IMG/VR virus record: IMGVR_UViG_3300028393_000001
Span: 59,963 to 123,962 of that record
Direction: 5' to 3' (one strand)
Length of the DNA: 64,000 nucleotides
From: a virus
A model generated the notes under the pieces. The model ran no database searches. It saw only the letters and a program-made list of their open reading frames with translations, and was not told the DNA's origin. This document shows positions 3,320 through 54,298 of this stretch, in pieces. How positions within the stretch are numbered: position 1 is the first letter of the stretch; each line of letters starts with the position of its first letter. A program made the position numbers and the translations under genes.

Positions 3320-3416
3320 AAATACACTACTTGCCACTTAATAAATATATGCGGAGACGTTCCGGACTGTGTCATTCCGCGGGTAACTGGGAGCACCCAG
3401 CATAGGTAGTGTGTTT
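3320..3416 (+). repeat. Hairpin with outer stem AAATACACTAC / GTAGTGTGTTT
   Basis: 3320-3330 pairs with 3406-3416 (one G-U). Inside are GCGGA...TCCGC and CTGGG-AGCA-CCCAG hairpins. The outer stem sequence is close to that of the hairpin at 5563-5643. It may belong to the tmRNA acceptor piece or be a separate leader structure. Confidence 0.65.
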
Positions 3417-3486
3417 TTTATTTTATAGTTGTATGAAGTAGACAGAAAAGTGTCTTGGACGGGGGTGCGAATCCCCCCAGGTCCAC

Positions 3487-3543
3487 CAGAAGTATATTCG
3501 ACCTCACACGCGGAGAGGTGAAATATAACAGAATATACTTCTG
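3487..3543 (+). repeat. 12-bp helix closing the tmRNA spacer
   Basis: 3487-3498 (CAGAAGTATATT) is the exact reverse complement of 3532-3543. It begins within the CCA end of the acceptor piece and ends three bases before the coding piece, enclosing an inner hairpin ACCTC...GAGGT. Confidence 0.9.
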
Positions 3544-3631
3544 ATGGGCCTGCATAGTTTCGACAGGGCAAAGAGTAGGAAAATGGACAACTCGGTAGGC
3601 GATGACCGTTAATCAAGCAAAACAAGTAAAC

Positions 3632-3664
3632 GCAAACGACTCACAGTTCGCATTAGCAGCCTAA
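3632..3664 (+). other. tmRNA proteolysis-tag reading frame
   Basis: Codons GCA AAC GAC TCA CAG TTC GCA TTA GCA GCC TAA give tag ANDSQFALAA. The tag starts with the resume codon GCA and ends in the ALAA degron seen in many proteobacterial tags. Confidence 0.93.
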
Positions 3665-3722
3665 ACACTGCTTAGGGTTTTGATAAGTTTTCCTCGTAAC
3701 AGAATAAACTTATCTCAAATAC

Positions 3723-3798
3723 CGCAGAGTATGGAAGTGGTCATCCGTCTGGTCTCATAAGCCTGAAATCGTTGGTTCGAATCCAACCTCTGCATCCA
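3723..3798 (+). tRNA. Initiator tRNA-fMet(CAT)
   Basis: 76 nt. Acceptor CGCAGAG faces CTCTGCA, leaving a C1-A72 mismatch, the hallmark of bacterial initiator tRNA. Anticodon loop CTCATAA; anticodon stem with GG/CC pairs; T-arm GTTGG-TTCGAAT-CCAAC; encoded CCA. It starts a few bases after the tmRNA coding piece. Confidence 0.92.
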
Positions 3799-3816: not shown

Positions 3817-4050
3817 ATGAAATTAAAATCTACTCCAGGTGCAATGGCAAATGCCAAGATACCTACATCCGTAAGCTACGGAGCAGATGCCCCCTCCTTA
3901 GATGCTGATATGGGTGTAGAGGATATTAGTCCTACAGGTACTGATATGGATGATATTCCACCAGGCAGTTTTGAGTTATTGACTCCAACAGTTAATAATA
4001 TTAAAATTACACACGAAGGTGATATGGGACGACTAAGTCCCCTAGAATAA
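3817..4050 (+). CDS. Hypothetical 77-residue acidic protein
   Basis: ATG at 3817 after GAAAGGAAAATTGT; a longer frame from 3772 would cover the tRNA and is rejected. The product, MKLKSTPGAMANAKIPTSVS onward, is Asp/Pro-rich and probably unstructured in the middle (DADMGVEDISPTGTDMDDIP). No family recognised. It lies between tRNA-fMet and tRNA-Gly. Confidence 0.55.
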   Translation: MKLKSTPGAMANAKIPTSVSYGADAPSLDADMGVEDISPTGTDMDDIPPGSFELLTPTVNNIKITHEGDMGRLSPLE

Positions 4051-4057: not shown

Positions 4058-4132
4058 GCGGGCATGGTGCTAGTGGTAACACATATCCTTGCCAAGGACA
4101 AGTTGCGAGTTCGATTCTCGCTGCCCGCTCCA
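4058..4132 (+). tRNA. tRNA-Gly(GCC)
   Basis: 75 nt. Acceptor GCGGGCA pairs with TGCCCGC, anticodon loop TTGCCAA, T-arm GCGAGTTCGATTCTCGC, encoded TCCA. Its CCA end is the first part of a 20-bp helix that runs to tRNA-Ser. Confidence 0.96.
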
Positions 4133-4223
4133 TATATAAATATACTACTAAACCCGCTGAGTCAGGTTTAACTACTGGAGTTCTGAAAAGAAGGTGTCGT
4201 AAGAGTAGTATATTTATATATGG
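4130..4223 (+). repeat. 20-bp perfect helix joining tRNA-Gly and tRNA-Ser
   Basis: 4130-4149 is the exact reverse complement of 4204-4223. The left arm begins at the CCA of tRNA-Gly and the right arm ends on the first GG of tRNA-Ser(TGA). The 54-nt inside holds a hairpin AAACC...GGTTT and then an unpaired A/G-rich stretch. Confidence 0.95.
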
Positions 4224-4313
4224 AAGATAATGCAGCGGGGTTGGTCCTGCGACTGGCCTTGAAAACCAGGTTCTCTTAACAGGGATGGGGTTCGACTCCT
4301 CTGTCTTCCGCCA
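4222..4313 (+). tRNA. tRNA-Ser(TGA)
   Basis: 92 nt with long variable arm. Acceptor GGAAGAT pairs with GTCTTCC, anticodon loop CTTGAAA, T-arm GGGGTTCGACTCCT, encoded GCCA. Confidence 0.93.
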
Positions 4314-4318: not shown

Positions 4319-4885
4319 ATGAAAAAAACAATATTATCACTATTTGATTACTCAGGTAATTGGCCTAGCCCTTATAAACGGGCAGGGTATGATGTGTATC
4401 AAGTTGACGTTAAACTAGGTATAGATATCTTAGAACTTCAACCCGAGGACATACCTGATAATGTCTATGGTATATTAGCTGCTCCTCCTTGTACAGATTT
4501 TGCAGGCTCAGGAGCACAGTACTGGAAAGCTAAAGACATAGACGGACGTACTGATAGTAGTCTAGCCCTAGTAGATAAAACATTAGAAATTATTTCTTGG
4601 TGTGACCCTAAATTTTGGGTGCTGGAAAATCCTGTAGGTAGACTAAGTAAACTTAGACCCAAACTAGGAGATCCCTGGTATTTTCAGCCTTGGCATTATG
4701 GTGATGCCTATACTAAGAAAACAGGGTTATGGGGTAATTTCAATAAAAGTTTAGTAAAACAGGAGGTAATTCCTGATCCTAATTCTTGGATAATGAAACT
4801 AGGTGGTAAATCGGAGAGAACAAAAGAATTACGCTCAATGACTCCTTTAGGATTTGCAGAGGCTTTCTTTAAAGCAAACCCATAA
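4319..4885 (+). CDS. DNA (cytosine-5) methyltransferase-like protein
   Basis: 188 residues. Residues 54-65 contain APPCTDFAGSG, the Pro-Cys motif IV that carries the catalytic cysteine (C58) of C5-cytosine methyltransferases, and ENPVGRL near residue 103 is the motif VI counterpart (ENV in most). The N-terminus ILSLFDYSGNW is the S-adenosylmethionine-binding motif I region. At 188 residues it is shorter than usual enzymes (300+) and has no visible separate target-recognition domain; many phages carry such short forms. Likely role: modifying phage DNA against host restriction. No cognate endonuclease is seen. Confidence 0.85.
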   Translation: MKKTILSLFDYSGNWPSPYKRAGYDVYQVDVKLGIDILELQPEDIPDNVYGILAAPPCTDFAGSGAQYWKAKDIDGRTDSSLALVDKTLEIISWCDPKFWVLENPVGRLSKLRPKLGDPWYFQPWHYGDAYTKKTGLWGNFNKSLVKQEVIPDPNSWIMKLGGKSERTKELRSMTPLGFAEAFFKANP

Positions 4886-5461: not shown

Positions 5462-5500
5462 ATGACAAGTGACAAGAGTGACAAACTGCCGGGGGTATAA
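5462..5500 (+). CDS. Possible 12-residue leader peptide overlapping tRNA-Lys
   Basis: AAGGAGAGCTGTC gives a strong ribosome binding site 5 bases before an ATG that opens MTSDKSDKLPGV and stops at TAA inside the first bases of tRNA-Lys (starts 5491). It may be the start of a gene that was replaced by the tRNA, or a real short peptide. Confidence 0.3.
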   Translation: MTSDKSDKLPGV

Positions 5501-5565
5501 CTTAGCGGCTAAAGTAACTGGCTTTTAACCAGTAAATCAGGGTTCGATTCCCTGTGCCCCTACCA
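5491..5565 (+). tRNA. tRNA-Lys(TTT)
   Basis: 75 nt. Acceptor GGGGGTA pairs with TGCCCCT (first pair G-U), anticodon arm CTGG-CTTTTAA-CCAG, T-arm CAGGGTTCGATTCCCTG, encoded ACCA. Confidence 0.95.
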
Positions 5566-5643
5566 TATAAAAATACACTGTCCTAGGCTGTGACCTAGTC
5601 CATCAGAAGTCCTCAGAGACAGAAGCAGTGTGTTTCTATATGG
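5563..5643 (+). repeat. 18-bp helix joining tRNA-Lys and tRNA-Met/Ile(CAT)
   Basis: 5563-5580 pairs with 5626-5643: 16 Watson-Crick pairs, one G-U and one A-C. The arms begin at the CCA of tRNA-Lys and end on the GG of the next tRNA. Inside is a hairpin CTAGG-CTGTGA-CCTAG and an unpaired A/G-rich part. Confidence 0.92.
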
Positions 5644-5716
5644 TAATGTAGGACAATGGTAGTCCACCTCCTTCATACGGAGAATGCTAGTGGTTCGAGT
5701 CCACTCATTACCACCA
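5642..5716 (+). tRNA. tRNA with anticodon CAT (Met or lysidine-modified Ile)
   Basis: 75 nt. Acceptor GGTAATG pairs with CATTACC, anticodon loop TTCATAC, T-arm AGTGGTTCGAGTCCACT, encoded ACCA. One of three CAT tRNAs here. Its loop differs from the usual CTCATAA of Met tRNAs, so it could be the AUA-reading Ile tRNA. Confidence 0.88.
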
Positions 5717-5798: not shown

Positions 5799-6019
5799 TT
5801 TGTTAAAGTGTTAGCAAGAGAAATCACGCTGATTAGTATTCTTCGAAGGTACTAATCAGTAGAAAGTTGCGGGTTCGATTCCCGACTTATCGCCGTTTAC
5901 GGTGGAGGTATACAGGGGCGTATCAACTGGATGAATCCCAAGTAACGTACCGAGACCTTGCCGGCCTTGTATAATAAGGTGAATGGTTCCGATAATATGG
6001 GTGGAACTACTTTAACAAA
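5799..6019 (+). ncRNA. Candidate structured RNA with tRNA T-arm, ends closed by 11-bp helix
   Basis: 5799-5809 is the exact reverse complement of 6009-6019. Inside lie a 10-bp perfect hairpin (5829-5838 with 5850-5859), a canonical T-arm CGGG-TTCGATT-CCCG (5870-5884) followed by TTATCG, hairpins near 5965-5979 (CCTT-GTATAAT-AAGG) and 5984-6005, and CGATAA at 5990 that could pair with TTATCG. No coding frame of note. The order 3' half before 5' half resembles the permuted tmRNA in this genome. Alternative: several unrelated hairpins plus a tRNA fragment. Confidence 0.5.
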
Positions 6020-38437: not shown

Positions 38438-41400
38438 TTAATCAAAGAAAAAGAAATTAAAGAATTTTCCTGGTGTGCTGATAGCAAATACCCAACCAAG
38501 ATTATTACTTACATTAGTTGAATTATTTCCAGCGTACCATGAACCTGTACCAGAACTTGTAGCGTTAGAATCTCTAATACTTAAATAATCCGTATTAGTT
38601 ATTCCTGTATTTCTAGTTAAAGTAAATTGTGTACCAGGTATTGTACTATTAATTGTAACAAGATTACCAGAAGTTCCGGATGCTGTAAAATTATTAACAG
38701 TTTGTGTTGAACCTGCTTCAAAAGATATTGTACTTGGTTTTGTCGTTGCAGTTATATCTGCAAACGTATTATTTCCTAGAACAGTTAGTGCACCGGACCC
38801 ACCTTGATTCAATGTTGAATAATTTCCCCCACTACCAGTAAATGTCTTTGCCGATGCACTTGACATATTTAATGTTAGACCTGTAATTATAATTGGAGAA
38901 CTGGTAGAAGAAATCCAAGAAGTTAATGGTGATGTGGGAACAGTAAATGAAGTGGTGTATAATGCTGCACCTTTAGTTATGCGGAAATTACTAATATAAC
39001 CACCAAAACCAAGTCTATATGTAGAATCCGCCCAAGCACCTATATTTAAATTACCGCCTTGTTGTCCCATAGTACCAGAACCTGTTTGTGGAGTACCTGG
39101 TACACCATTAAGATATCCTGTAAATATATTTCCTTGTCTAACTAATGCAAAATGATACCAAGTGTTTGGTGTTATAACGGTAGGATAATTTTCAATTGCA
39201 ACCGCAGTTGGACCAATACCATCACCTATAAACCACTGTATTTTTCCTTGATCTGCTCCGCTTCCTTGTATAAATGCACCATATGATTCATTAACAAAGT
39301 TTACTGTTCCATCCTTCCCGAATAAAGCACCATCTGTTGTTATATTATTTTTATTGAACCAACATTCAATTGTCCAATTTGGCGCACCTGTTGCTAAATC
39401 TAGTACACTACTATTTGGACCAGGTATACTTAAATATTGAGTAGTACCATCTAATAAAATACTACCTATACCAGAAAGTGGGGTCAAAGAATTAAACGTA
39501 GCCGAATTATTATTTGTTACAGTTAATGCATTACTACTACTATCAGTTGTAAAATTATCTGCATTTTGTGTACTTAATAATAAACTAGTTGAAGAACTTA
39601 TTACTGAAGTAAACGCAGTACCTGAACCTGTAATATTATAAGTAGAAGAACCTGTCAAACTAGCTGTAGCATTAGGAAAAGTTGTACCAGAAAAATTAGA
39701 ACTAGTTAAAGTAAATGATGAAGTGTTAAATGTTCCAGACATTAATGTAATTGTTCCAGAAACTATCATTGCGTCAGCAAGTGTAATTGTACCAATTGTG
39801 TTGAGTGTTAATCCAGAAATTGTTTTGCCTTGATTAGTAAATGTGCCTGTACCAGAAGCAATAATACTCATTACAGTAAATGTTCCTGTTGATGATAATG
39901 TTAAATTACCTACTATATTCAATGTAGTTGTAGTTATAGCAAAACTTGTTGTACCAAAATTCAAATTATTAAACCAGCTACCTGTTATAAATGTTATAAC
40001 AGAGGAACCAGTTGTTAATGTTAAATTTGGAGCTGATGTAGCAGAACCACCGGCTGTTGCTCCTAATTGAATTGTTCTTGTTACAGATGCATCGGTTTGG
40101 AAGCCTCCTGTACCTGTACATGTAAGTCCGGTTACATTACTCATTTGCAAGGCATATGCTAATCCTGTAGGATAATTTAATATAATATTATTTGAACCAA
40201 ATGAAATTACACGAGTGTTTGCGTTTGATGAAAAGAATTGGCCTATTGTTAAATTACTACCAAGAGTTAATGTACCAGCTGTTAATGAATATCCACCTGT
40301 ATTAGTTGAGGCATAGGCTTTATTAAAAGTAACTGATCCAGCTGTATGATTAAATGATGGTACTGCACCTAGTACAGCTGTACCACTATATGTAAATGTT
40401 CCTGTTGCATTTACAAAGCTAACAGATGGTATTATAGTTCCATTAGAAAAATTAAATGTGCCTGAGTTAGTAAATGTTGTACAAGTAATGGTACCAATGT
40501 TGCTTAATGTACCTGCTGTATATGTTGCTGTGCCTGAACAAGTCAAATTGAAAGTAGCGAAATCAATAGTTCCACTAGTTTGTGTATAGGTAGTACAACT
40601 TAAAGCACTCGCTAATGTAGTAATTGTAGGGTCTCCTACTACATTAATAATAGTAAATGCCGCTATTGTTTTTCCATTAGGAGTAATAGTTCCTGTTCTA
40701 AACATTGTTACCGATAAACCAGTATATGTACTAGTACTAGATAATAATAAACTATTAACGTTTACACTGGTTGTTGGGATAGTAAACGCAGTAGTACCAA
40801 AATTAAGTATTTTAAACCAACTACTAGTAGTCAATGTTTGTATTGCAGTACCAGATCCAGTAAACGTTAAGTTTGGTTCCATTCCACCAGCAGTAGTTAC
40901 CCCAAATTGAAACGTTCTAGTTATATCTGCGGCCGCAGTAAATCCGCCGGTGCTAGTATTGTCCCATGTAAAACCGGTAGTAACCGCCATTGATAAATTT
41001 ACTGCAGTTGCAGTAGTAGTTGCCAACACAATATTGTTTGTGCTAAATGAAATCGCCCTTGTATTTACATTAGATGAGCTGAATATACCTGTTGTTAAAT
41101 TACTGCCTAATGTTAATGTACCGGCTGTTAATGTATAAGTACCGGTGGCGGTTAAGGCATAAGCTTTATTAAAAGTAACTGATCCAGCTGTATGTGTAAA
41201 TGCTGGTACTGCACCTAGTACAGCTGTACCACTATATGTAAATGTTCCTGCTGTTGTATTTACAAAACTAACAGATGGTGTTATAGTTCCACTAGAAAAA
41301 ACAAATGTACCTGAGTTAGTAAATGTTGTACATGTTAAAGTACCAATATTTGATAGTGTACCACCATTGTAAGTTGCTGTGCTAGAACAAGTAAAATTAA

Positions 41401-44400
41401 AACCAGCAAAATCCAATGTGCCCAATGTGACTGCCAATGTTGTGGATGCTCCAGCACTTCCAAGTGTGATTGTAATACCAAGTGTATTAACTATAAATGG
41501 TCCAAGCGATGCACTATTGAATATATACGTACCGCTAACTAACGGATTAATTGTTGTACTAGTATAAACACCACCTGAAGAAAGTGTGAGATTACCAACA
41601 ATGTTTAAGGTTGTTGTTCCTGGATTAAATATTGTTGTTCCAAAATTTAAGTTCTTAAACCAACTGGCTGTTGTTAGTGTCGCAACAAAAGCACCTGTTG
41701 TGAATGTAAGATTTACTGCGGTTGATAGCGACCCACCAGTAGTTCCGTAAGTAAGTGTTCTTGTGTTAGCCATATCAGCCACGGTGAATCCACCGGGCCC
41801 GGTATAGGTAAATCCTGTCACAATAGCCATACTCAATACAGTTGTTGCGGTAGTTGTATGTGTGAGATTGATATTTCCTGCCGACAAGCTACCAAAATTA
41901 ATTGAACGTGTGTTAGCGTTTGATGAAAAGAATATCCCAGTATTCAATGTTACACCATCAGCAAGTGTTAGGGTACCTGCTGTTAATGCATATGTACCAG
42001 TGACGGTTAAACCAAGTGATTGATTTAATGTAACAGTACCAGCAGTGTGTGTGAATGTTGCTACTGAACTTAAAACGGCCGGACTATTATATGTAAATGA
42101 TCCTGTTGTTAATACAAAGCTGGTTGATGGTGTAATTGTTCCGCTAGAGAAAGTAAATGATGGTCCATTAACGGTAAAGGTTGTACAAGTGATTATTCCT
42201 ATATTACTTAAAGTACCTCCAGCGTATGTTACGGTACCAGTATCAGTTAAAGTAAATGTGGCAAAATTCATTGTACCCAAAGTTTGAGTATATGAAGTAC
42301 ATCCAAAAGCACCTGCTAGTGTGATAGTACCTGACGTATTAACAGTAAAAGCACCTATTGTTTTACCATTAGGTGTAATAGTACCAGTACCAACAGCATT
42401 AATAGCAAGAGCAGTGAATATACCAGCACCAGAAGATAATGTTAAGTTACCTGCTATATTTAATGTTGATGCGGCCGCAGTAAAAGCAGTAGAACCAAAA
42501 TCTAAATTTTTATACCAATTATTATTTGATATTGTAACAACTGCCGTACCAGAACCAGTCAATGATAAGTTAGGAGCATTTGTTAATGAACCGCCTGTTA
42601 GACCGGCTGTAACTGTTCTAGTAATAGATGCATCGGTTTGAAAACTACCAGTTCCTGTCCAAGTAAAATTAGTAAGTGTTGCTATATTCAATACAGTTAT
42701 AGCAGCAGTAGTGTGCGCCAATACAATATTACCTATACCAAACTGAATTGCTCTTGTATTTGAGTTACTAGAGCTGAATATACCAGTTGTTAATGTAAAT
42801 CCATTAAGGTTTAATGTTCCAGTAGTTAATGTAGTTGTAGCTGTGATTAAAATAGGAAATGCTGTTTGTAATGTAATTGTTCCTACAGTATTAATAGTTA
42901 ATCCACCTAAACCAGTAGATGTTGTTAGAGCAGCACCATTAATATTAAGATTACCTGTGCCTGTCATTGTTACACTCAATAAAGTGTAACTACCAGTGCC
43001 TGATAATATTAAACTACCAGAACAAGTTATACCTGTTGATGGTACAGCAAATGTTGTAGTACCAAAATTTAAGTTATTAAAAAAGCTTGAATTTATTGTA
43101 GCAACAGAGGCACCTGTTGTAAAAGTAAGATTTGGATTGACTGTCGTTACCGCCTGAACAAAACTACGAGTAACACTCATGTCCGCAACAGTAAAGCCGC
43201 CTAGACCTGGGCAAGTAATATTAGTTCCTTGAATATTCAAAACTGTTGTTGCAGCTGTTGTATGCGTAAGGTTTATATTTCCTGCAGTTGTTGTGCCAAA
43301 CGTAATCGAACGGACACTGTTACTATTTGAACTAAAAATACCTGTTGTCAATGTTACACTATCAGCAAGTATTAGGGTACCAGCTGTTAATGTATAAGTG
43401 CCAGTAGCGGTTAAGGCATAAGCTTTATTAAAAGTAACTGATCCTGCTGTATGTGTGAATAGTGTTACTGCACTTAATACAGCTGTATTGCTGTAAGTAA
43501 ATGAACCACTAGTTAATACAAAGCTGGTTGATGGTGTTATAGTTCCACTAGAAAAAACAAACGCTGGTCCATTAACTGTAAATGTTGTACATGTTAAAGT
43601 TCCAATATTTGATAGTGTACCACCAGTGTATGATACGGTACCAGTATCAGTTAAATTAAAACCAGCAAAATTAATTGTACCCGATGTTTGTACATATGAA
43701 GTACAACCAAAAGCGCCGGCTAGTGTTACAGTACCCAACGTATTAACGGTAAATGCGGCTACTGTTTTACCATTAGGTGTAATAGTACCTGTGCCAGCCA
43801 TTGTAAATCCCTGAGAAATGTATGTACTACCAGCTGCTAGGGTTAAATTACCTGTTATATTTATAGATGAACCACTAAGTGCACCAGTATTTCCAGTAAA
43901 ATCTAAATTATTAAACCAACAACCAGGACCAAATTGCGGAGGACTAGCAGCTCCACCTGTAATAAAAAGATTAGGTGCAGATGTTATAGAACCACCAGCA
44001 GTTATTCCAGAATCAAATGATCTTATAGTACTCATTATTGTACTAAATCCACCAGTACCTGTTGGTGTAAAGTTAGTAAGGTCTGTTATATTTAACACGG
44101 TATTACTAGCGGCAGTAGTTGCAAGAAAAATATAATAAGTATTAAATGCAATTGATCGAATATTTGTAGTAGGAGAATAAATAATACCTGTTGTTAAATT
44201 GGCACCCAATGTTATTGATCCTGCACTTAGAGTATACTGACCAGTAGCAGTTAATGAATATGCTTTATTAAAAGTAACTGATCCAGCGGTATGTGTAAAT
44301 AGTGGTACTGCACTTAGTACAGCAGTACCACTATATGTAAATGAACCTGATGTTAATACAAAACTGGTTGAAGGTGTTATAGTTCCACTAGAAAAAACAA

Positions 44401-47400
44401 ATGTAGCTCCGTTAACAGTAAATGTTGTACATGTTAAAGTACCAATATTTGATAGTGTACCACCAGTAAATGTTACCGTACCAGTATCAGTTAAATTAAA
44501 ACCAGCAAAATTCATTGTACCCAAAGTTTGAGTATATGAAGTACATCCAAAAGCACCTGCTAGTGTGATAGTACCTGACGTATTAACAGTAAAAGCACCT
44601 ATTGTTTTACCATTAGGTGTAATAGTACCTGTGCCATTCATTATTATTCCAAGAGCGGTATAAGTACCTCCAGTTGCTAAAGTAAGATCTCCGTATACAC
44701 TTACTACTGTACTGGCTGGAATTGATGTGCTTCCACTAAAATTTAAATTGTTAAATAAACTATTTATTGATAGTGTGGGTATACTTACTCCACTATAAAT
44801 TGATAAATTAACTGGTGTACCCGATACTGTATTAGTAAATGTAGGTGCTGAACTAACAAATACACTTGCTCCTGTATTAGTAATAGTAAAATTATTAATG
44901 CTACTATCTGACGACCCACTACCAAAAGATGTATTTAATAATAATGATGTTTGGGAACCTGTAATAGCACCAGTATTAACCCCACCAAATGGGTTTGCTG
45001 TTTGAGTAGAAGTAAAAAGTCCAGTTGGAGTAGTAAAATTACCTGTATATACTGCTACCCCTGTTACTAATCTTATATTAGAAATATAACCAGCAAAATA
45101 ATCTAAAAATCCAGGATATTGGAAAGATCCGATAATAGTTTTTCTAGCAGTGACTGTTTTTGTAATAGTTGCCGAGTTATCCAATACACCATTAACAAAT
45201 AGTTTAACAAGTCCTGACTGTCTTGTCACTGCCACATGATACCATGTACCCAGAGAGATAGCTATACTACCCTCAACATATGCCTGACTTGAACTATCTC
45301 TTAGTTGAAATCCGATGGTGCCTCCTGAACGTGTAAATAGTTCCCAATATGAGGTGCCGCTGGACTCAGCATTAGTTAACAATGTCCCATCTGTTGCTGA
45401 TGTTTTATAAAACCAACACTCAGCAGTAAAATCACCAGTACCCCAAGAACTTGCCCCAACTGGTGCTGTTAAATATTGACTAGTACCATCTAACAACACA
45501 CTGCCAGGAGTAGCATTAGCTGATCCAGAAGTAAATGTGCGATCCACACTCATTGCGGAAACAAATCCACCTGTTCCTGTAACAGTTAATCCTGAAGAAT
45601 ATGCCATATCCAATACATTTATAGATGTAGTAGTATGTGCAAGTATAATATTACCTGTACCAAATGCAATAGTTCTAAAAAGAGTATTATTTGAGCTAAA
45701 AATTCCTGTTGTTAGGGTAAATCCTGCAAGATTTAGTGTTCCAGTTGTTAATGTTACTGTAGAGTTAACAGCTACTGTTAATGGAGCAGCTAAAGTAACT
45801 GTACCTGTAGTACAATTAATTGTAAATGATGGTAAAGTTGAATTACCAGCACTATTAATAGTTCCTGTACCAATAAAAGTTACTGTTAAATTTGTAAAAT
45901 TTCCACCAGAAGACAGAAGTAAACTATTAAGTTTTAAATTTGTTGTAGGTACAGTAACTGCTCCCGTACCACTTAAATCTAGTATATTAAATAAAGAGCT
46001 TGTTACTAATGCAGGAACAGAACTGCCAGTTAATCTAAGAGATGGTGCATTAGATGTTGAACCACCAGAAACACTACCAAAATTAAATCCTCTGGTAATA
46101 GTCATATTTGAATAAAATCCACCAGTACCTGATGCAGTAAAAGTAAAATTATTAGCCTGGTTCATAACTAATACAGTTGTTCCTGCATTTGGAGATGTTA
46201 ATTCTATAGTATATGAACCAAATTGTATTGAACGTATATTAGTATTATTAGAAGAAAAAATCCCAGTACTTACATTTGCTCCTAATTGAAGCACACCTGT
46301 TACTAAAGTAAATTGTGATGTTGCGGATAAATTACCACTTTGCCAGTAAACTGTTGTATTTGATGAGTTTACTATAATATCTGGTTGAAATGTGCCACCA
46401 ATTAATAATGTTTGAGTAACAGCGTTTCCTAAAAAAATTACTCCTATAGCGCTGCCTGATACTGTGGAATTTACGCCTGTTTTAATATCTCCGTAGACAT
46501 TGAAATTATTTAAAATATTTAACGTCATTGATAAATTTCTTGACGACATGTCTAATGTACCAATGGAATAGTTACCATTAATAGTGATTGTATTTCCCGT
46601 AGTAAGGCCTGTATTATCTACAATACATACATCTTGGGGTAATGGAAAATTATTAACACTTGGTGTTCCACCAGATGATTCTGCCCAAGCAATTGCATTC
46701 CAGGTACCTCCAGCTGTAAGACTCCAATAGAGTGTTCTTGCAACAAAAGTTATATTTGTATTATTACCTAAGTTACCAAGTCTTGTTCCTGTAAAAGGAG
46801 AAGCCGTACCAGTAGCATTTATATCTTTAAAATCAATATCAGTTAAAGACAATGTAGCAGCTGACAATGTAATTTGAGTACCAGTTGTACTAGATTGTAA
46901 TAATAAACGACCAGACGATAATGTACTTGTATTGCTTAATATGCCATTAATTGTTTGAGTTCCAGTGATTGATACTGTAACAGTTCCTGTTGTTGTTGGA
47001 TTGGTGAAATTTAAATTATTATATGTGTTTGTTCCAGTAATAGTTGTTATACTATCTGGTGATTGTGCTGGAGTAAATGATACATTATAAAATGTTTTAT
47101 TACTACTACCATTGTTTATTATAGTTGACGAAGAAACTCCACTTAAATTAATTTGTGAAGTTCCTGCATTAAATGTAGTATTTTCATAAGTTTGAAAATA
47201 ACCACTTAGATTAATTGTAGAAGAACCTAAATTAAATATAGTAGGAAAACCAAGTGAAGTAGCAATATTAGTACATGTAATATTATAATTATTTGTATTA
47301 AATGTTCCCCTAAAACAAAATATATTTGTACATGAAAGTGCTGAACCTAAATTATAAGTAACATTACTACCATTACCAATATAAATACTACCAGGAATTG

Positions 47401-50400
47401 TTTTACCATTTGTTGTTATAGTTTTTGTACCAGTGCTAGCATATAAGTTAAGACTACCAGTCATAGCTGTAAAAGTCATACTAGCAGATAATGTATAATT
47501 ACCATAAATATAATGACTTACTTGTGCTGCCAGAGTACCAGTAAATCCTGTAAAATCAACATTATTAGCTGAATCATTAGCATTTGTTATAAAACTTAGT
47601 GTTGAGGCACCAGTAAAATTAAAACTAATTGATTGAGCTTCTGATAGTGGTCCAGGAGATACACTAACTGTTCCTGATGGAGAGGTTACATTAACAACAG
47701 GAGTTCCTGTGATTGTTAAAGTTGTAACTGTACTAGTATCCCAAATATTACCTGTACCATTAACAGTTATAGAATTAGAACCAAAATTGAGTGTTCTAGG
47801 TCCACCAGCATCATTACTATTAAAAGAACCAGTTGTTATATTATAACCATTAAGAGACAGTGTTCCATAATATAATTGAACACTACTTAATGAGGTCATA
47901 ACTAGATCTGCACCTAATTGAACTGTTGCAGCAGCAATCAGAATTGAAGCTTGAATAGTTCTTGAAATCGTTATAGTTCTAAGTGTAAGATCTAGGGGAC
48001 TTGGACTAGTGCCAAATTGGATTTGTCCAGTTAATGAAGTAACAGTTCCGCCAGTGGCTGGTATGGTGCAATCTCCCAAAATATTCAATGTCAATGGCAC
48101 AGTAAAAGTACATGTTAATCCTGTTAAATCTAAAGTATAAAGACTACCAGATAATGCAACAGTATCTGTGGCACCAGAATTAATTTGAATACCAACACAC
48201 GAATTACATTTAACATCAAGTAATGGGGTGTATGATTTAATTGACGATGCTAATTTAATAGTTCTTGTTCCAATAGAACCACTATATGTACTAAGTATTT
48301 TTATTGTTCCTAAAGACCAATCACGATTAGAAGAACTTGTATCCCATATTGTTGTATTATTACCTGTTAATTGAATTAATGAAGATGTACTGAAATCAAT
48401 AAAACGTGTAGTAGTTGTACCTGATGCAATATATGCACCAGTTGTTAAAGTGTAATTATTAAGCGATAATGTTCCATCTGCATGTGCGTATGTACTTACT
48501 GTAAGTGAATTATTTAAAGTAACAGTACCTGCCGTATGCGTGAAAACAGGTGTTGTTAACGTACCGCCAGTATATGTAAATGTTCCTGCCGTGTTCATTA
48601 CAAAACTAACAGAAGAATTAATTGTTCCACTAGAAAATGTCAAATCACCAATACAGTTAAACGTTGTACAACTTATAGTTCCAATATTACTTAGTGTACT
48701 TGCGGTATATGTTGCAGTACTTGAACAAACTATATTAAATCCAGCACAATCTAAGTTACCTGACGTTTGTGCATAGGTAGTACAACTTAAAATACCTGCA
48801 AGCGTTATGGTTCCTGTTCCGCCTGTAATAACTTGAAAAGCGGCGATTGTTTTACCATTGGGAGTAACTGTAACAGTACCGCCTGCTTTTGTTAACATAT
48901 TTAAACTTAAAGCGGTAAATGTACCACCGGTAGATAATACGAACTCATTGACATATACAGCAGAAGCAGATACCATTGTAAACGCGGTTGTTCCAAAATC
49001 AAGTTTATTAAAATTACCACCTGAAATTGTTGCGGAAGTAGTACCAGTACCTGTAAATGTTAAGTTTGGTGCATTTGTTCCAAGACCGCCGCTAGTATTT
49101 CCAAAACTAAATGTTCTTGTAACCAATGCATCTGCTGTAAATCCGCCAGTACCTGTCCAAGTGAAACCGCCGGCAATTGCCATAGCCAATACTGTTTGCG
49201 CTGCGGTAGTATGAGCCAAAACAACATTATATGTTCCAAACGCAATTGAACGAGTACCTGCACCAGAAGAACTGAATATACCTGTTGTTAAATTAGCACC
49301 TAGTGTTATGGTACCAGCTGTTAATGTATAAGTGCCGGTAGCGGTTAAAGCATATGCTTTATTAAAAGTTACGTTACCAAATGTATGTGTAAATGTAGGT
49401 ACAGCACTTAATACAGCTGTACCGCTGTAAGTAAATGTTCCTGCCGTGTTCATTACAAAACTAACACTAGGTGTAATTGTTCCACTAGAAAATGTCAACT
49501 CACCAGTACAGTTAAATGTTGTACAAGTAATGGTTCCAATATTGCTTAATATTCCTGAGTTATATGTGGCTGTTGAACTACACGTTAAGTTGAATGTAGC
49601 AAAGTTAATTGTACCAGCTACCGGGGCATTCATTATGAATGATGTTACACTCAGTGCAGCCGACAATGTGACTGTGCCAGAACCATTAACGCTAAATGCT
49701 GCTATAGCTTTACCATTAGGTGTAATAGTACCTGTACCAGCTGCTGTTATTGATAAGTTGGTATATGTACCGCCAGCTGCTAAAGTTAGATTACCAGTGA
49801 CGTTTACTGTTGATATTGCTGGAGTTGCAGTTGATCCAGTAAAATCTAAATTATTAAACCAACTAGCCGTAGTAATAGTTGGTATAGCTGCGCCAGCAGT
49901 TATTGCTAGATTGGGCGATGTTGTTATAGAACCGCCTGTTGTTGATCCGCATGTAAATGATCTTGTAACAGAACCGTTTGCTGTAAAACCACCAGTACCT
50001 GACCAAGTAAAGTTGGTCAAATCTGCCATACTCAATACTACAGTAGCAGCAGTTGGATGTACTAAAACAATACTGAATGTACTAAAAGCAATTGAACGAA
50101 CTCCAGTACCAGTAGAACTGAATATACCTATTGTTAAATTACTGCCTAGTGTTAGTGTACCTGCTGTTAGGGTATAAGTGCCGGTAGCGGTTAAAGTATA
50201 CGCTTTATTAAAAGTTACGTTACCAGCTGTATGTGTAAATGTAGGTACTGCACTTAATACAGCTGTACCGCTGTAAGTAAATGTTCCTGCTGTATTTACA
50301 AAACTAGTTGAAGGTGTGATTGTTCCACTAGAAAAATCAAATGTGCCTGAGTTAGTAAATATTGTACAAGTAATAGTTCCAATATTGCTTAATGTACCGC

Positions 50401-53400
50401 TAGTATACGTAGCTGCGCCTGAACAAATTATATTAAATCCAGCACAGTCTAAATTACCTGCAGTTTGAGTAAATGTACTAGTAGTTACTGGGCCCGTCAA
50501 TGTTGAGATTGTAATAAGTCCAACATTCTGAAAGCCGGCAATCGTTTTGCCGTTAGTTGTGATGTTTTTAACAACAGCGCCATCATGTTGGTTACCAATT
50601 CTTAAAGTTACACCAGTGTATGTTCCACCAGTTGATAAAATTAGTCCACTTACAGTTATTTGACCTGTTGTAACAGAACAAGTAGTTGTTCCAAAATCAA
50701 GATTATTAAAGTCGCTATTAGTTAATGTTTGAGTTTGATTACCACTACCAGTATATGTTACATTAAAACCCCCTAAAGTACCACTAGCTGTAGATCCAAC
50801 TGCAATTGTTCTTGTAACTGATGCATCTGTTAAAAATCCACCTGTACCTGTCCAAGTAAAATTTGTACCATTTACAACGTTTAATACAGTTTGTGCTGCT
50901 GTAGGGTGATTCAATACAATATTGTTTGTACCAAACGCAATAGAACGTACACCAGTACCAGCAGACGTAAATATACCTGTTGTTAAGTTGCCGCCTAATG
51001 TTAATGTACCTGCTGTTAGGGTATATGTTCCTGTAGTAGTTAATGAATAATTTGTATTAATTGTTACTGAGCCTGCTGTATGCGTAAACGTTGGTACTGC
51101 TGATAAACCACCGGCTGCAGAAAAATTAACTGTAAGAGAACCTGAAGTTATAACAATACTTGTTGAAATTATCCAAGAACAGCCTGCAGCTATACTATAT
51201 GTACTACCTGCAATTGTAAGTGTAGTACATTGAACCTGTCCATTGTTGGATAATGTTCCACCATTGAGTGTACATGTGCTACTACAAATAAGTATACAAT
51301 TACTTTCTGTAACTACTGTACCAGCTGTTACAGCTAAGGTAGTACATCTATTAGTGTTACCATTAAGAAATGTTGTAGTTACAAGAACATTATTAACAAT
51401 CACAGGACCTATGCTGATACCAGCATATATAGTACCTGTACCAACCATATTTGAAGTTAGTGCAGTGAGCACACTTGTAGTTGAAGAAGTTGTTAAATTA
51501 ACTAAATTTATAGTTGTTGCAGCAATAGTAAAAGCAGTAGTACCAAAATTAAGTTCACCAAACCAACTACCTGTTGTCAGTGTAGGAGCTGATATACCAC
51601 TAGCCAAATAAAGGCCAGGTGCATTTGTTGCAGTACCACCAGTAGTTCCAAATGTAAATGTTCTGGTAACTGCCATTATTGAATGGAAACAGCCAGTTCC
51701 TGAGCCAAAAGTACCTGAAGTAGTATATGTAAAACCAGTAACTGTAGCCATATTTAATACAACAGTCGCAAGCGTAGTATGTTGTAAAGAAATAGTACCA
51801 GTTCCAAAATAAATTGCTCTTGTGTTTGTATTTGATGAACTAAATGCACCTGTTAATAAACCAAAATTATTAAGGTTTAATGTACCAGTTGTTAATGTGG
51901 TTGTACCTGTAAGAATTGTTGCAAACGCTGATGATAAAGTAACTGTTCCTGCAGTATTAATATTTAGTGCAGCTAAACCACCTGATGATAATCCAGAACT
52001 AGTAAGGGTACCAGTTGCTATCATGTTTACGGTTACTGCATTATAACTACTACTAGCTGATAGATTTAAATTTCCAGTAATATTTAATGTTGCTGCTGCA
52101 GGGATGCCAGCAGTTGTACCAAAATCTAAATTATTAAAATAACTACCTGTTGTAATTGTTGGGATAGCTGCACTTGTACCTGTAAAGGTTAAATTTGGTG
52201 CAGTTACTAAGGCTCCACCAGTTGTACCAAATACTAGAGTTCTAGTTACAGCCATGTCTGTAATGAAGTTTTGAGTTCCTGTGAACGTATAACCTGTAAC
52301 AATAGCCATATTTAGCACAGTTGTTGCAGCTGTGCTATGTGTTAAAGTAATAGTACTAGTCCCGAACTGAATAGCTCTTGTATTTGTATTTGATGAACTA
52401 AATGCACCTGTTAATAAATTAAAACCATTTAGGTTTAATGTACCAGCCGTTAGTGTAGTTGTACCAAGTACCGTCACTGCAAATGCTGATAGTAAAGTAA
52501 CTGTTCCAGTAGTATTAATATTTAACCCAACCAGTGCGCCAGCAGATGTTCCAGAACCAGTAAGAGTACCAGTTGCTATCATGTTTACGGTTAATACACT
52601 ATAATTACCACTAGTTGATAGATTTAAATTTCCGGTAATATTTATGGTAGTTGGTCCGGCCACCGAATTGGCAGTTGTAGTAAAATCTAAATTATTAAAA
52701 TAACTACCTGTTGTAAGTCCGATACTACTTGTGCCACCTCCTGTAAAGGTTAAATTTGGTGCAGTTACTAAGGCTCCACCAGTTGTACCAAAAGTAAATG
52801 TTCTACCCCCTGCCGTATCTGAAATAAAGTTTTGAGTTCCTGTGAACGTATAACCTGTAACAATAGCCATAGTTAATACAGGAACGGCACCTCCTGTTAA
52901 AGTAACACTATAAGTACCAAATGCAATTGAACGAGTATTTACATTACTAGAATTTAATATACCAACTGATAAATTACCGCCTAATGTTAATGAACCAGCA
53001 GTAAGTGTATATGTACAATTAGTTGGTAATGTCCATGCAATAGTTGACGATACTGTACCATTAGTTTGTATAAATGCAGGGCCTGTTAGTGTACCTCCAC
53101 TATTTGTGTATATACCAGAAGTAATAGTAAAACTTGAACTACTAGAAATAGTACCTGAAGTATGGGTAAATGTTGGCCCATTTAATGTAAATGTTATACA
53201 CTGAAGTGTACCACTTGTAATATCTAAACTACCACTGTTCCATGTAGCTGTGTTTGAGCAAATTAGAGAACTTGCAGCACCAAGTACCAAAGAGCCTTGT
53301 GTTACTGTTAATGTGGTACATCTACTTGTATTGCCTGCTTGAGCGGTAGTAGTTGCACCAACCGTATTTATAATTAATGGTCCTATAGTATTTTGTGTAT

Positions 53401-54298
53401 TAATTGTTCCGGTTCCTACCATATTGGCTGTTAAGCTGGTAAGAACACATGTAGAATTATTGTAAATATTAACTAAATTAAGAGTTGTTGCTATAGCTGT
53501 ATATGCTGTTGTGCCAAAATTAATTTCATTAAACCAACTACCCGTTGTCAATGTTGCAACTGCAACACCACTAACTAAATAAAGTTTTGGAGCATTTATT
53601 GCCGAACCACTAGTAGTTCCAAACGTAAATGTTCTGGTAACCGACATTGTGGATTGAAAACCCCCTGTTCCTGATCCAAAAGTACCGCTACTTGTATATG
53701 TAAAATTGGTTACATCCGCCATGCTCAACACAGTTTGTGCAGCTGTAGTATGAGCTAAAATAATATTATTGGAACCAAATGCAATTGAACGTGTATTAAT
53801 GATACTAGAACTGAATATACCAGTAGTTAGATCAAAACCATTAAGAGATAATGCACCGTTAGTTAATGTAGTAGTCTGTGTTGCACCAGTTGTTAATGCG
53901 CTAGTCAAACTCCAGCCACCACCTACTCCATTGAATGTAATAGGAGCATTTATTGTTGTTCCGCCAGTACCAATTGTTTTACCAGTTATTGTACTGTTAA
54001 ATGTTATTGCACCAGTACTAGTCCAAGTCATAGCTATCAATGACATAGAACCTGAAATTGCAAGTGTAGGTGTTGTACCTATTGCAAACGTGACAGTGCC
54101 TGCCGATACCGTAATATCTTGGCAAGTTAAAGCTCCCGTCATTGTAACTGTATAAGTACCTGGTTGGTCAAATATAACATTGTCAGCTGCAGTAGGAACA
54201 CTTGCACCGCCTGTTACTGCACCTGATGTAGTAGCCCAGTTAGTAGTTAAAGTAGTATTCCATGTACCTGCACCGCCTCTCCAATATCTATCTGCCAT
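38438..54298 (-). CDS. Giant repeat protein of 5,286 residues, probable virion adhesin/fibre
   Basis: One uninterrupted 15.9-kb frame. It opens with MADRYWRGGAGTWNTTLTTN, a start seen in phage structural repeat proteins. It is built of Ser/Thr/Gly/Asn-rich beta repeats such as GTLTLGSNLTTGIFSSSNTN, VTRTFTFGTTGG, WFNNLDFGTTAF and GTYTLTAGTLTLG, with a period near 280 residues (840 bp, nearly identical DNA). Two LamG/concanavalin-like domains interrupt them at about residues 2,930-3,140 (TAECWFYKTSATDGT) and 4,945-5,130 (TIECWFNKNNITTDG). The C-terminus ends in KFFNFFFFD. Low Cys, no signal peptide. A parallel beta-helix or beta-solenoid fibre that binds host polysaccharide is the best guess. 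Confidence 0.85.
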   Translation of the reverse strand: MADRYWRGGAGTWNTTLTTNWATTSGAVTGGASVPTAADNVIFDQPGTYTVTMTGALTCQDITVSAGTVTFAIGTTPTLAISGSMSLIAMTWTSTGAITFNSTITGKTIGTGGTTINAPITFNGVGGGWSLTSALTTGATQTTTLTNGALSLNGFDLTTGIFSSSIINTRSIAFGSNNIILAHTTAAQTVLSMADVTNFTYTSSGTFGSGTGGFQSTMSVTRTFTFGTTSGSAINAPKLYLVSGVAVATLTTGSWFNEINFGTTAYTAIATTLNLVNIYNNSTCVLTSLTANMVGTGTINTQNTIGPLIINTVGATTTAQAGNTSRCTTLTVTQGSLVLGAASSLICSNTATWNSGSLDITSGTLQCITFTLNGPTFTHTSGTISSSSSFTITSGIYTNSGGTLTGPAFIQTNGTVSSTIAWTLPTNCTYTLTAGSLTLGGNLSVGILNSSNVNTRSIAFGTYSVTLTGGAVPVLTMAIVTGYTFTGTQNFISDTAGGRTFTFGTTGGALVTAPNLTFTGGGTSSIGLTTGSYFNNLDFTTTANSVAGPTTINITGNLNLSTSGNYSVLTVNMIATGTLTGSGTSAGALVGLNINTTGTVTLLSAFAVTVLGTTTLTAGTLNLNGFNLLTGAFSSSNTNTRAIQFGTSTITLTHSTAATTVLNMAIVTGYTFTGTQNFITDMAVTRTLVFGTTGGALVTAPNLTFTGTSAAIPTITTGSYFNNLDFGTTAGIPAAATLNITGNLNLSASSSYNAVTVNMIATGTLTSSGLSSGGLAALNINTAGTVTLSSAFATILTGTTTLTTGTLNLNNFGLLTGAFSSSNTNTRAIYFGTGTISLQHTTLATVVLNMATVTGFTYTTSGTFGSGTGCFHSIMAVTRTFTFGTTGGTATNAPGLYLASGISAPTLTTGSWFGELNFGTTAFTIAATTINLVNLTTSSTTSVLTALTSNMVGTGTIYAGISIGPVIVNNVLVTTTFLNGNTNRCTTLAVTAGTVVTESNCILICSSTCTLNGGTLSNNGQVQCTTLTIAGSTYSIAAGCSWIISTSIVITSGSLTVNFSAAGGLSAVPTFTHTAGSVTINTNYSLTTTGTYTLTAGTLTLGGNLTTGIFTSAGTGVRSIAFGTNNIVLNHPTAAQTVLNVVNGTNFTWTGTGGFLTDASVTRTIAVGSTASGTLGGFNVTYTGSGNQTQTLTNSDFNNLDFGTTTCSVTTGQITVSGLILSTGGTYTGVTLRIGNQHDGAVVKNITTNGKTIAGFQNVGLITISTLTGPVTTSTFTQTAGNLDCAGFNIICSGAATYTSGTLSNIGTITCTIFTNSGTFDFSSGTITPSTSFVNTAGTFTYSGTAVLSAVPTFTHTAGNVTFNKAYTLTATGTYTLTAGTLTLGSNLTIGIFSSTGTGVRSIAFSTFSIVLVHPTAATVVLSMADLTNFTWSGTGGFTANGSVTRSFTCGSTTGGSITTSPNLAITAGAAIPTITTASWFNNLDFTGSTATPAISTVNVTGNLTLAAGGTYTNLSITAAGTGTITPNGKAIAAFSVNGSGTVTLSAALSVTSFIMNAPVAGTINFATFNLTCSSTATYNSGILSNIGTITCTTFNCTGELTFSSGTITPSVSFVMNTAGTFTYSGTAVLSAVPTFTHTFGNVTFNKAYALTATGTYTLTAGTITLGANLTTGIFSSSGAGTRSIAFGTYNVVLAHTTAAQTVLAMAIAGGFTWTGTGGFTADALVTRTFSFGNTSGGLGTNAPNLTFTGTGTTSATISGGNFNKLDFGTTAFTMVSASAVYVNEFVLSTGGTFTALSLNMLTKAGGTVTVTPNGKTIAAFQVITGGTGTITLAGILSCTTYAQTSGNLDCAGFNIVCSSTATYTASTLSNIGTISCTTFNCIGDLTFSSGTINSSVSFVMNTAGTFTYTGGTLTTPVFTHTAGTVTLNNSLTVSTYAHADGTLSLNNYTLTTGAYIASGTTTTRFIDFSTSSLIQLTGNNTTIWDTSSSNRDWSLGTIKILSTYSGSIGTRTIKLASSIKSYTPLLDVKCNSCVGIQINSGATDTVALSGSLYTLDLTGLTCTFTVPLTLNILGDCTIPATGGTVTSLTGQIQFGTSPSPLDLTLRTITISRTIQASILIAAATVQLGADLVMTSLSSVQLYYGTLSLNGYNITTGSFNSNDAGGPRTLNFGSNSITVNGTGNIWDTSTVTTLTITGTPVVNVTSPSGTVSVSPGPLSEAQSISFNFTGASTLSFITNANDSANNVDFTGFTGTLAAQVSHYIYGNYTLSASMTFTAMTGSLNLYASTGTKTITTNGKTIPGSIYIGNGSNVTYNLGSALSCTNIFCFRGTFNTNNYNITCTNIATSLGFPTIFNLGSSTINLSGYFQTYENTTFNAGTSQINLSGVSSSTIINNGSSNKTFYNVSFTPAQSPDSITTITGTNTYNNLNFTNPTTTGTVTVSITGTQTINGILSNTSTLSSGRLLLQSSTTGTQITLSAATLSLTDIDFKDINATGTASPFTGTRLGNLGNNTNITFVARTLYWSLTAGGTWNAIAWAESSGGTPSVNNFPLPQDVCIVDNTGLTTGNTITINGNYSIGTLDMSSRNLSMTLNILNNFNVYGDIKTGVNSTVSGSAIGVIFLGNAVTQTLLIGGTFQPDIIVNSSNTTVYWQSGNLSATSQFTLVTGVLQLGANVSTGIFSSNNTNIRSIQFGSYTIELTSPNAGTTVLVMNQANNFTFTASGTGGFYSNMTITRGFNFGSVSGGSTSNAPSLRLTGSSVPALVTSSLFNILDLSGTGAVTVPTTNLKLNSLLLSSGGNFTNLTVTFIGTGTINSAGNSTLPSFTINCTTGTVTLAAPLTVAVNSTVTLTTGTLNLAGFTLTTGIFSSNNTLFRTIAFGTGNIILAHTTTSINVLDMAYSSGLTVTGTGGFVSAMSVDRTFTSGSANATPGSVLLDGTSQYLTAPVGASSWGTGDFTAECWFYKTSATDGTLLTNAESSGTSYWELFTRSGGTIGFQLRDSSSQAYVEGSIAISLGTWYHVAVTRQSGLVKLFVNGVLDNSATITKTVTARKTIIGSFQYPGFLDYFAGYISNIRLVTGVAVYTGNFTTPTGLFTSTQTANPFGGVNTGAITGSQTSLLLNTSFGSGSSDSSINNFTITNTGASVFVSSAPTFTNTVSGTPVNLSIYSGVSIPTLSINSLFNNLNFSGSTSIPASTVVSVYGDLTLATGGTYTALGIIMNGTGTITPNGKTIGAFTVNTSGTITLAGAFGCTSYTQTLGTMNFAGFNLTDTGTVTFTGGTLSNIGTLTCTTFTVNGATFVFSSGTITPSTSFVLTSGSFTYSGTAVLSAVPLFTHTAGSVTFNKAYSLTATGQYTLSAGSITLGANLTTGIIYSPTTNIRSIAFNTYYIFLATTAASNTVLNITDLTNFTPTGTGGFSTIMSTIRSFDSGITAGGSITSAPNLFITGGAASPPQFGPGCWFNNLDFTGNTGALSGSSINITGNLTLAAGSTYISQGFTMAGTGTITPNGKTVAAFTVNTLGTVTLAGAFGCTSYVQTSGTINFAGFNLTDTGTVSYTGGTLSNIGTLTCTTFTVNGPAFVFSSGTITPSTSFVLTSGSFTYSNTAVLSAVTLFTHTAGSVTFNKAYALTATGTYTLTAGTLILADSVTLTTGIFSSNSNSVRSITFGTTTAGNINLTHTTAATTVLNIQGTNITCPGLGGFTVADMSVTRSFVQAVTTVNPNLTFTTGASVATINSSFFNNLNFGTTTFAVPSTGITCSGSLILSGTGSYTLLSVTMTGTGNLNINGAALTTSTGLGGLTINTVGTITLQTAFPILITATTTLTTGTLNLNGFTLTTGIFSSSNSNTRAIQFGIGNIVLAHTTAAITVLNIATLTNFTWTGTGSFQTDASITRTVTAGLTGGSLTNAPNLSLTGSGTAVVTISNNNWYKNLDFGSTAFTAAASTLNIAGNLTLSSGAGIFTALAINAVGTGTITPNGKTIGAFTVNTSGTITLAGAFGCTSYTQTLGTMNFATFTLTDTGTVTYAGGTLSNIGIITCTTFTVNGPSFTFSSGTITPSTSFVLTTGSFTYNSPAVLSSVATFTHTAGTVTLNQSLGLTVTGTYALTAGTLTLADGVTLNTGIFFSSNANTRSINFGSLSAGNINLTHTTTATTVLSMAIVTGFTYTGPGGFTVADMANTRTLTYGTTGGSLSTAVNLTFTTGAFVATLTTASWFKNLNFGTTIFNPGTTTLNIVGNLTLSSGGVYTSTTINPLVSGTYIFNSASLGPFIVNTLGITITLGSAGASTTLAVTLGTLDFAGFNFTCSSTATYNGGTLSNIGTLTCTTFTNSGTFVFSSGTITPSVSFVNTTAGTFTYSGTAVLGAVPAFTHTAGSVTFNKAYALTATGTYTLTAGTLTLGSNLTTGIFSSSNVNTRAISFSTNNIVLATTTATAVNLSMAVTTGFTWDNTSTGGFTAAADITRTFQFGVTTAGGMEPNLTFTGSGTAIQTLTTSSWFKILNFGTTAFTIPTTSVNVNSLLLSSTSTYTGLSVTMFRTGTITPNGKTIAAFTIINVVGDPTITTLASALSCTTYTQTSGTIDFATFNLTCSGTATYTAGTLSNIGTITCTTFTNSGTFNFSNGTIIPSVSFVNATGTFTYSGTAVLGAVPSFNHTAGSVTFNKAYASTNTGGYSLTAGTLTLGSNLTIGQFFSSNANTRVISFGSNNIILNYPTGLAYALQMSNVTGLTCTGTGGFQTDASVTRTIQLGATAGGSATSAPNLTLTTGSSVITFITGSWFNNLNFGTTSFAITTTTLNIVGNLTLSSTGTFTVMSIIASGTGTFTNQGKTISGLTLNTIGTITLADAMIVSGTITLMSGTFNTSSFTLTSSNFSGTTFPNATASLTGSSTYNITGSGTAFTSVISSSTSLLLSTQNADNFTTDSSSNALTVTNNNSATFNSLTPLSGIGSILLDGTTQYLSIPGPNSSVLDLATGAPNWTIECWFNKNNITTDGALFGKDGTVNFVNESYGAFIQGSGADQGKIQWFIGDGIGPTAVAIENYPTVITPNTWYHFALVRQGNIFTGYLNGVPGTPQTGSGTMGQQGGNLNIGAWADSTYRLGFGGYISNFRITKGAALYTTSFTVPTSPLTSWISSTSSPIIITGLTLNMSSASAKTFTGSGGNYSTLNQGGSGALTVLGNNTFADITATTKPSTISFEAGSTQTVNNFTASGTSGNLVTINSTIPGTQFTLTRNTGITNTDYLSIRDSNATSSGTGSWYAGNNSTNVSNNLGWVFAISTPGKFFNFFFFD
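39800..54200 (-). repeat. Long near-identical DNA repeats (about 840 bp period) in the giant gene
   Basis: The motif GCATAAGCTTTATTAAAAGTAAC and its variants recur near 40315, 41155, 43420, 44260, 49350 and 50200. Neighbouring pairs are about 840 bp apart, which is 280 codons. Confidence 0.85.

Follow-up and report, generated by a model that had tools for sequence, protein, structure and literature searches.

Hairpins that join the CCA end of one tRNA to the start of the next in a T5-like lake phage and other phages

The hairpin between tRNA-Gly and tRNA-Ser

The stretch of DNA analysed here, 64,000 nucleotides in length and referred to as the window, comes from a lake virus of bacteria that is T5-like by its NAD ligase, D5-like regulator, DnaB, DNA polymerase and SbcC-like proteins. 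Between its genes for tRNA-Gly(gcc) and tRNA-Ser(tga) lies a spacer bounded by two arms (TCCATATATAAATATACTACT ... AGTAGTATATTTATATATGGA) that form 20 perfect base pairs (Table 1). An earlier note on this DNA had described such a perfect helix, with arms beginning at the CCA of one tRNA and finishing on the GG of the next, and both points are borne out: the structure spans 4130–4223, from the CCA to the GG at 4222–4223, and a repeat search extends the arms to 4129–4149 and 4204–4224 (21 nt, 100% complementary, 54 nt between them). In this register, A76, C75 and C74 of tRNA-Gly are opposite U-1, G1 and G2 of tRNA-Ser; a helix anchored in this way is called a clamp below. The region of tRNA-Ser gives a sub-threshold Rfam match as tRNA-Sec (4222–4309), and its anticodon, UGA, was assigned by reading the sequence directly.

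Folding, which had been proposed as a check, yields for the spacer alone a structure far more stable than those of shuffled sequences (-30.6 kcal/mol vs -15.7 ± 3.2; z = -4.6), which none of 200 shuffles equals. The small hairpin that had been placed inside the spacer persists in the centroid fold as a 5-bp stem, weak and nothing more. The absence of a known ribozyme core agrees with the Rfam searches, in which no ribozyme or other family exceeded the threshold in 4133–4221; over the whole hairpin, a search with E up to 10 returned tRNAs and chance matches, those to miRNA models having E-values of 1.4 or weaker. Separately, AACCCGCTG in the loop (4152–4160) has its complement, CAGCGGG(G)TT, in the tRNA-Ser D-arm (4233–4242), which may reflect a competing fold or chance.

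Table 1. Positions in the window of the clamps, the adjoining tRNA genes and the tmRNA spacer helix
Feature	Position	Strand	Basis and remarks
tRNA-Gly(gcc)	4058..4132	+	ARAGORN; Rfam RF00005, 51 bits; CCA encoded at 4130-4132
5' arm of Gly-Ser clamp	4130..4149	+	CCA is its start; T4129 gives one extra pair
Gly-Ser loop, 54 nt	4150..4203	+	Without family or conserved core
3' arm of Gly-Ser clamp	4204..4223	+	Final bases are U-1 (4221), G1 (4222) and G2 (4223) of tRNA-Ser
tRNA-Ser(tga)	4222..4313	+	ARAGORN -ps85, as tRNA-???; default ARAGORN overlooks the gene
tRNA-Lys(ttt), second clamp junction	5491..5565	+	ARAGORN
Second clamp hairpin, Lys>Met	5561..5645	+	Arms 5561-5580/5626-5645, 90% complementary; fold z -4.1
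tRNA-Met(cat), second clamp junction	5642..5716	+	ARAGORN
Permuted tmRNA acceptor-stem strands and spacer helix	3478..3552	+	Rfam, repeat search; spacer helix 3489-3499/3531-3541; related motif

A second clamp joins tRNA-Lys to tRNA-Met, with A76 (5565) opposite U-1 (5641), the same register as in the Gly-Ser clamp, and with a different arm sequence. The window also encodes, at 3396–3755, a permuted (two-piece, beta-type) tmRNA with the tag ANDSQFALAA, in a T5-like phage; the tags in related phages are ANDEVFALAA or ANDETFALAA. Two-piece tmRNA is already known from aquatic phages (PMC9004378). The spacer of this molecule (3482–3548) folds with z = -5.7 against shuffles and, like the clamp, runs from CCA through helix, loop and helix to the GG with which the next RNA begins. 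The claim that the two have the same geometry holds in part: the arm motif AAGYAYACT is common to the tmRNA spacer helix and the clamps between tRNAs, but the register differs, with A73 paired to U-1, a C74·A-2 mismatch, C75 paired to G-3 and A76 to U-4, so that the CCA pairs upstream of the GG start, and the tmRNA arms (3478–3499/3531–3552) prolong the acceptor stem of a single molecule, whereas the clamp links two tRNAs. The Gly-Ser helix is not itself a permuted tmRNA spacer, since tRNA-Gly and tRNA-Ser are each complete and the register is another.

Recurrence of the clamp and selection on its arms

Relatives were retrieved as 41 loci with the 188-aa protein encoded at 4319–4885, and of the 125 strong stems in these loci and the window, 22 have their start at a tRNA 3' end. 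Across 23 contigs (1.18 Mb) 36 strong stems were observed at tRNA 3' ends vs 0.8 expected from stem density, a count that comprises the window phage and its relatives and includes some near-identical contigs twice. One contig (L004, the same as that of L005 and G001) represents the phage population of the window and was left out of the independent evidence; it was also the sole contig found when relatives were sought via the small ORF at 3817–4047. A pattern made up of a tRNA T-arm, the CCA and then the arm motif matched at least 119 stretches. Among 86 pattern matches in 80 loci, 71 close a helix with a score of at least 12, the maximum for shuffled downstream sequence being 11.3, and 13 of the 15 with lower scores fall below 10, three of these at most 100 nt from the end of a contig. 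The window, L005–L045 and later phage loci together offer 1526 distinct CCA ends, whose stem scores are bimodal: one group, below about 10, is chance pairing, and the other is hairpins, 136 scoring at least 11; as the pattern used to fetch loci L110–L189 included CCATANNNAANNAC, the arm consensus and tRNA types in this survey are biased. Chance origin is ruled out by the shuffle folds, the stem-density expectation, the shuffled downstream sequence and the score distribution at CCA ends. Lys, Glu and Gln are frequent among the tRNA types with clamps, in a sample biased by the fetching pattern.

The clamp is not a universal element of tRNA spacers, being present in 88 and absent from 257 of 345 tRNA gaps of 36–250 nt, and at short junctions (gaps up to 15 nt) it was found in 2 of 632 cases. 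Its distribution extends beyond phages that resemble the source phage in protein content. When seven window proteins were compared with 16 other contigs, ten contigs shared at least four (T5 was represented by a 35-kb stretch only, which makes its entry uninformative), and G033–G038 shared none or one, at 25–27% identity. The latter six carry clamp hairpins despite these few or no common proteins, G036 with a differing arm sequence and one consensus case, and the DNA polymerase of G033 and G034 belongs to another family than that of the window phage. Stretches taken from six cultured phages (SUSP2, PA5oct, T4, Slicko01, X1 and Melnitz) had clamps at none of 62 tRNAs; cultured phages near in DNA matched in single tRNAs or short stretches; and in a bacterial genome collection a stricter pattern matched five times, in no case with a hairpin.

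The consensus of the unique arms is CCAUAUNNAANCACAUU and AGUGUGUUUNNAUAUGG. Two positions are peculiar: 17 of the 102 unique arms contain an A8·C mismatch and 43 a U16·G pair, which never occurs as G16·U, so that the orientation relative to the tRNA is single. The helix is 20–21 bp long in the window and mostly 16–23 bp in relatives, and it encloses loops of 4–173 nt in which no common core is seen. On the upstream side, A76 is paired in 102 of these arms, C75 in 100 and C74 in 93. On the downstream side, 74 hairpins lie no more than 15 nt from a following tRNA, and in 39 of these the last base of the arm is the G2 of that tRNA; at tRNA-His junctions the arm stops one base earlier in 3 of 6, as if counted from the extra G-1 that mature tRNA-His bears, and the remaining junctions have a leader, mostly of 4–9 nt.

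Pairing over all hairpins jointly (95.8% vs 52.8% when shuffled) was not used as proof of covariation because the hairpins had been picked for pairing, and the evidence was confined to junctions selected by their flanking tRNAs and to T5 orthologues. The search for covariation that the earlier note had called for revealed, at junctions matched by their flanking tRNAs, compensatory double changes at three pairs for Lys>Met, three for Lys>His, four for Gln>Ser and eight for Phe>Asp. Relatives that keep the tRNAs and lose the pairing were held to speak against a function. At the matched junctions with gaps of 30–260 nt the pairing is kept throughout (Lys>Met 11/11, Lys>His 6/6, Gln>Ser 6/6, Phe>Asp 3/3), but the sole further spacer at a Gly(gcc)>Ser-like junction, that of L261, is 144 nt long and has no clamp. 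Among 128 unique arm pairs, under scoring equal for both, G-U pairs outnumber A-C mismatches by 113 to 50, and by 39 to 14 after clustering at 85% and removal of the two peculiar positions (68 clusters, p = 8e-4). As each G-U pair reads as A-C on the opposite strand, the excess argues for selection on the transcript in the tRNA sense; mutation bias could contribute. The compensatory changes and the tolerance of G-U are those of an RNA structure under selection, and the observation made at the Gly-Ser junction holds and generalises beyond the window.

The stable RNAs of T5 and the proposed processing of the precursor

The tRNA region of T5 (AY543070) contains annotated stable RNAs of unknown function, among them RNAIII, RNA2H and RNAIV, which resemble the clamp loops in being RNAs inside long helices within a tRNA cluster. 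RNAI, which ends in ...GCCGCCA, forms a 20-bp helix with the beginning of tRNA-His (arms GCCACAATTGAAAATTCGTA / TGCGAGTTTTCAATTGTGGC), the one CCA-anchored case among the RNA ends tested, and RNAIII is enclosed by this helix, exactly between the CCA end and tRNA-His and with both of its ends in the helix. T5 differs from the clamps in register (A76 is opposite nucleotide 2 of tRNA-His), in missing the CCAUAU...CACAUU consensus and in having the tRNA-like RNAI rather than a tRNA upstream. With RNA ends taken from the GenBank annotation, the predicted fold with flanks pairs the 5' nucleotide of RNAIII with the nucleotide 2 before its 3' end, the helix running on outside; RNA2H has a like 2-nt stagger with a bulge nearby, RNAIV a stagger of 1 nt plus a bulge, and the predicted folds of RNAI, RNA1, RNA2, RNA3 and RNAX lack a 2-nt stagger at the ends. 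The staggered ends of RNAIII and RNA2H correspond to a 2-nt 3' overhang such as RNase III would leave. In an alignment of T5 with five relatives, from 493 records with a match, SE24 and MET_P1-88 are read as having a replaced loop and arms that still pair, partly via G-U; the stretch before tRNA-His was also read in TrudiGerster and Proteus phage RP7, where a clamp was not established.

The helix, its register, the compensatory changes, the sense-strand bias and the T5 geometry are demonstrated in the sequences, and from them we infer the enzyme, the cuts and the fate of the spacer. The clamp is probably an RNase III excision signal in a polycistronic tRNA precursor, by which the spacer RNA would be released. 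The earlier note had considered a processing signal, which is the reading we favour, with RNase III as the best candidate. By its sequence, the folded spacer has the upstream CCA end and the 5' terminus of the RNA that follows at the base of a helix of 17–23 bp, in which host RNase III would cut both strands to leave a 2-nt 3' overhang, as the annotated ends of T5 RNAIII and RNA2H suggest. Through these cuts the precursor would become two separate, short-flanked units and the hairpin would be freed, and RNase P and 3' exonucleases would complete the tRNA ends as in standard tRNA maturation. The freed hairpin may last as a stable RNA, its counterpart being found in the T5 annotation. By analogy with RNAIII, the 54-nt Gly-Ser loop and the inner helix are predicted to leave as a spacer RNA; the other proposal of the note, an RNA of its own, is possible too, since RNAIII occupies the corresponding place in T5 and its annotation is that of a stable RNA.

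The phage would depend on the RNase III of its host, because no phage-encoded enzyme was found (PF14622 in 0 of 33 records and PF00636 in 0 of 18, with positive controls); bacterial hosts possess RNase III, and the missing phage copy is thus neutral. A helix of about two turns is the usual RNase III substrate, and the clamps provide a perfect or near-perfect helix of about 20 bp between RNAs that are to be parted. The related helix in the spacer of the permuted tmRNA, which must be excised, also speaks for this reading. Counting against it are the arm consensus and the recurrent A8·C mismatch, features that RNase III, with its loose specificity, would not need, and the fact that most spacers of 36–250 nt and all 62 tested tRNAs of cultured phages, T4 included, do without a clamp.

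The clamp is a variant of the double-stranded processing signals already known in phage tRNA precursors. RNase III processing of T4 tRNA precursors was reportedly described by McClain in 1979 and by Gurevitz and Apirion in 1983. A review that cites these two papers, PMC4810235, also gives RNase III a part in T4 tRNA maturation; T4 is alike in combining a phage tRNA precursor with the host enzyme, but its tRNA stretch is without a CCA-anchored helix (0 of 9 tRNAs). In the 16S and 23S pre-rRNAs, as touched on in PMC4810235 and generally known, a stable RNA likewise has at its ends a long helix that RNase III cuts, with other enzymes finishing the ends, but there the helix surrounds the product, whereas the clamp surrounds a spacer between two products. 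The titles and abstract openings of open-licence papers in PMC, a scope outside which the older T5 RNA papers fall, contained no description of a clamp helix.

Near-identical arms with differing loops occur at various junctions and in unrelated phages, the loop length varies widely, and the same tRNA pair can be either abutting (gap of at most 14 nt) or hairpin-bearing (gap of at least 35 nt), like empty and filled sites. All this would fit a palindromic element of the MITE, REPIN or attC type at CCA ends, either mobile DNA or a recombination hairpin, which would shuffle tRNA cassettes and have the arms as its terminal inverted repeats. Pro>Ala and Glu>Tyr also occur with longer gaps that have no hairpin. 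Such elements would be expected in either orientation or with a clean empty site, but the clamps have a single orientation and their linkers differ: abutting hairpins leave no linker to the tRNA, whereas the direct junctions listed have 1–14 nt, so that a simple insertion does not explain them. The preference for G-U over A-C on the RNA sense strand, the extension of the helix into both mature RNAs and the T5 relatives that swap the loop and retain the pairing are further points against a DNA element, which we consider unlikely.

That the CCA is paired in nearly all hairpins, even where no tRNA begins at UGG, would be explained if the clamp protected the 3' end without any part for RNase III, keeping the CCA out of reach of CCA-acting enzymes, nuclease toxins or the exonucleases of the host up to the time when the downstream RNA matures and the action of RNase P on the next tRNA opens the helix. 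However, the pairing of the CCA partly reflects how the hairpins were anchored and selected, and a gate of this kind, quite unlikely in our estimate, leaves unexplained both the 2-nt stagger at the ends of RNAIII and RNA2H in T5 and the related helix in the tmRNA spacer. The annotation of T5 RNAIII, RNA2H and RNAIV as stable RNAs could instead mean that the spacer RNA is the point, for example as a decoy that draws off a host protein which binds dsRNA or targets RNA, with tRNA processing as its route of production; yet the loops have no common core, can be as short as 4–5 nt and are replaced among T5 relatives, which makes this very unlikely. Either a CCA gate or a functional spacer RNA would be compatible with cutting by RNase III.

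Excision by RNase III would provide a rule by which some of the large tRNA arrays in phages are divided into units and would offer a simple origin for the orphan T5 RNAs RNAIII and RNA2H as excised spacers. As the arm finishes on the first bases of the next gene, the clamp would also serve as a marker of tRNA-like genes overlooked by annotation tools. The occurrence of nearly the same duplex, with frequent A·C and G-U, in unrelated phages calls for a specific reader or for the exchange of tRNA-spacer cassettes. It is conceivable, if doubtful, that aquatic phages share the CCA-clamp hairpins horizontally as an RNA module, in which one consensus duplex, whose register to the mature ends of two different RNAs is fixed, is recognised by a specific reader (RNase III or another nuclease) that separates tRNA and tmRNA units and yields stable hairpin RNAs with 2-nt overhangs, T5 RNAIII included. 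As part of such a module, the hairpin RNAs or the hidden CCA may act against host defences that target RNA.

Other hairpins and RNAs in the tRNA clusters

A second family of spacer hairpins, UUUUAGGNNNN..CAGCAA ... NNNNCCUGUU, starts right after the CCA and leaves the CCA itself unpaired. It comprises 37 candidates, 34 of them with a matching 3' arm, shows compensatory differences between the arms and sits in tRNA–tRNA gaps of about 70–130 nt (for example in L242, on the minus strand, and in L132, L124, L128 and L142), among them some of the 36–250 nt gaps that have no clamp; tRNA was its sole Rfam match among the matches listed.

Several RNAs bracketed by clamps or following them were left unnamed by the tools (L053:4779-4846, L053:4933 onward, L055:16829 onward and L049:16474 onward), and in L008 and L016 Rfam gave no match besides tRNA and tmRNA. 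The RNA after the Tyr clamp in L063, L072 and L104 is perhaps, by reading, a tRNA with the anticodon CUA. T-arm-like elements, possibly remnants of tRNA genes or overlooked tRNAs, were found in 7 of 127 distinct loops of at least 20 nt (two in L006 and one each in L242, L129, L151, L158 and L160), compared with a mean of 0.12 in shuffled loops.

In the window itself, default ARAGORN may have overlooked two additional tRNA genes, at 2500–2571 (Rfam) and 5812–5894 (ARAGORN with lowered score). A leader/trailer pair of tRNA-His (6105–6123/6181–6199) lengthens the acceptor stem in the inverse arrangement, with the helix around the tRNA. An ORF on the minus strand (38438–54298) has 5286 codons, which is very long in relation to the size of the phage.
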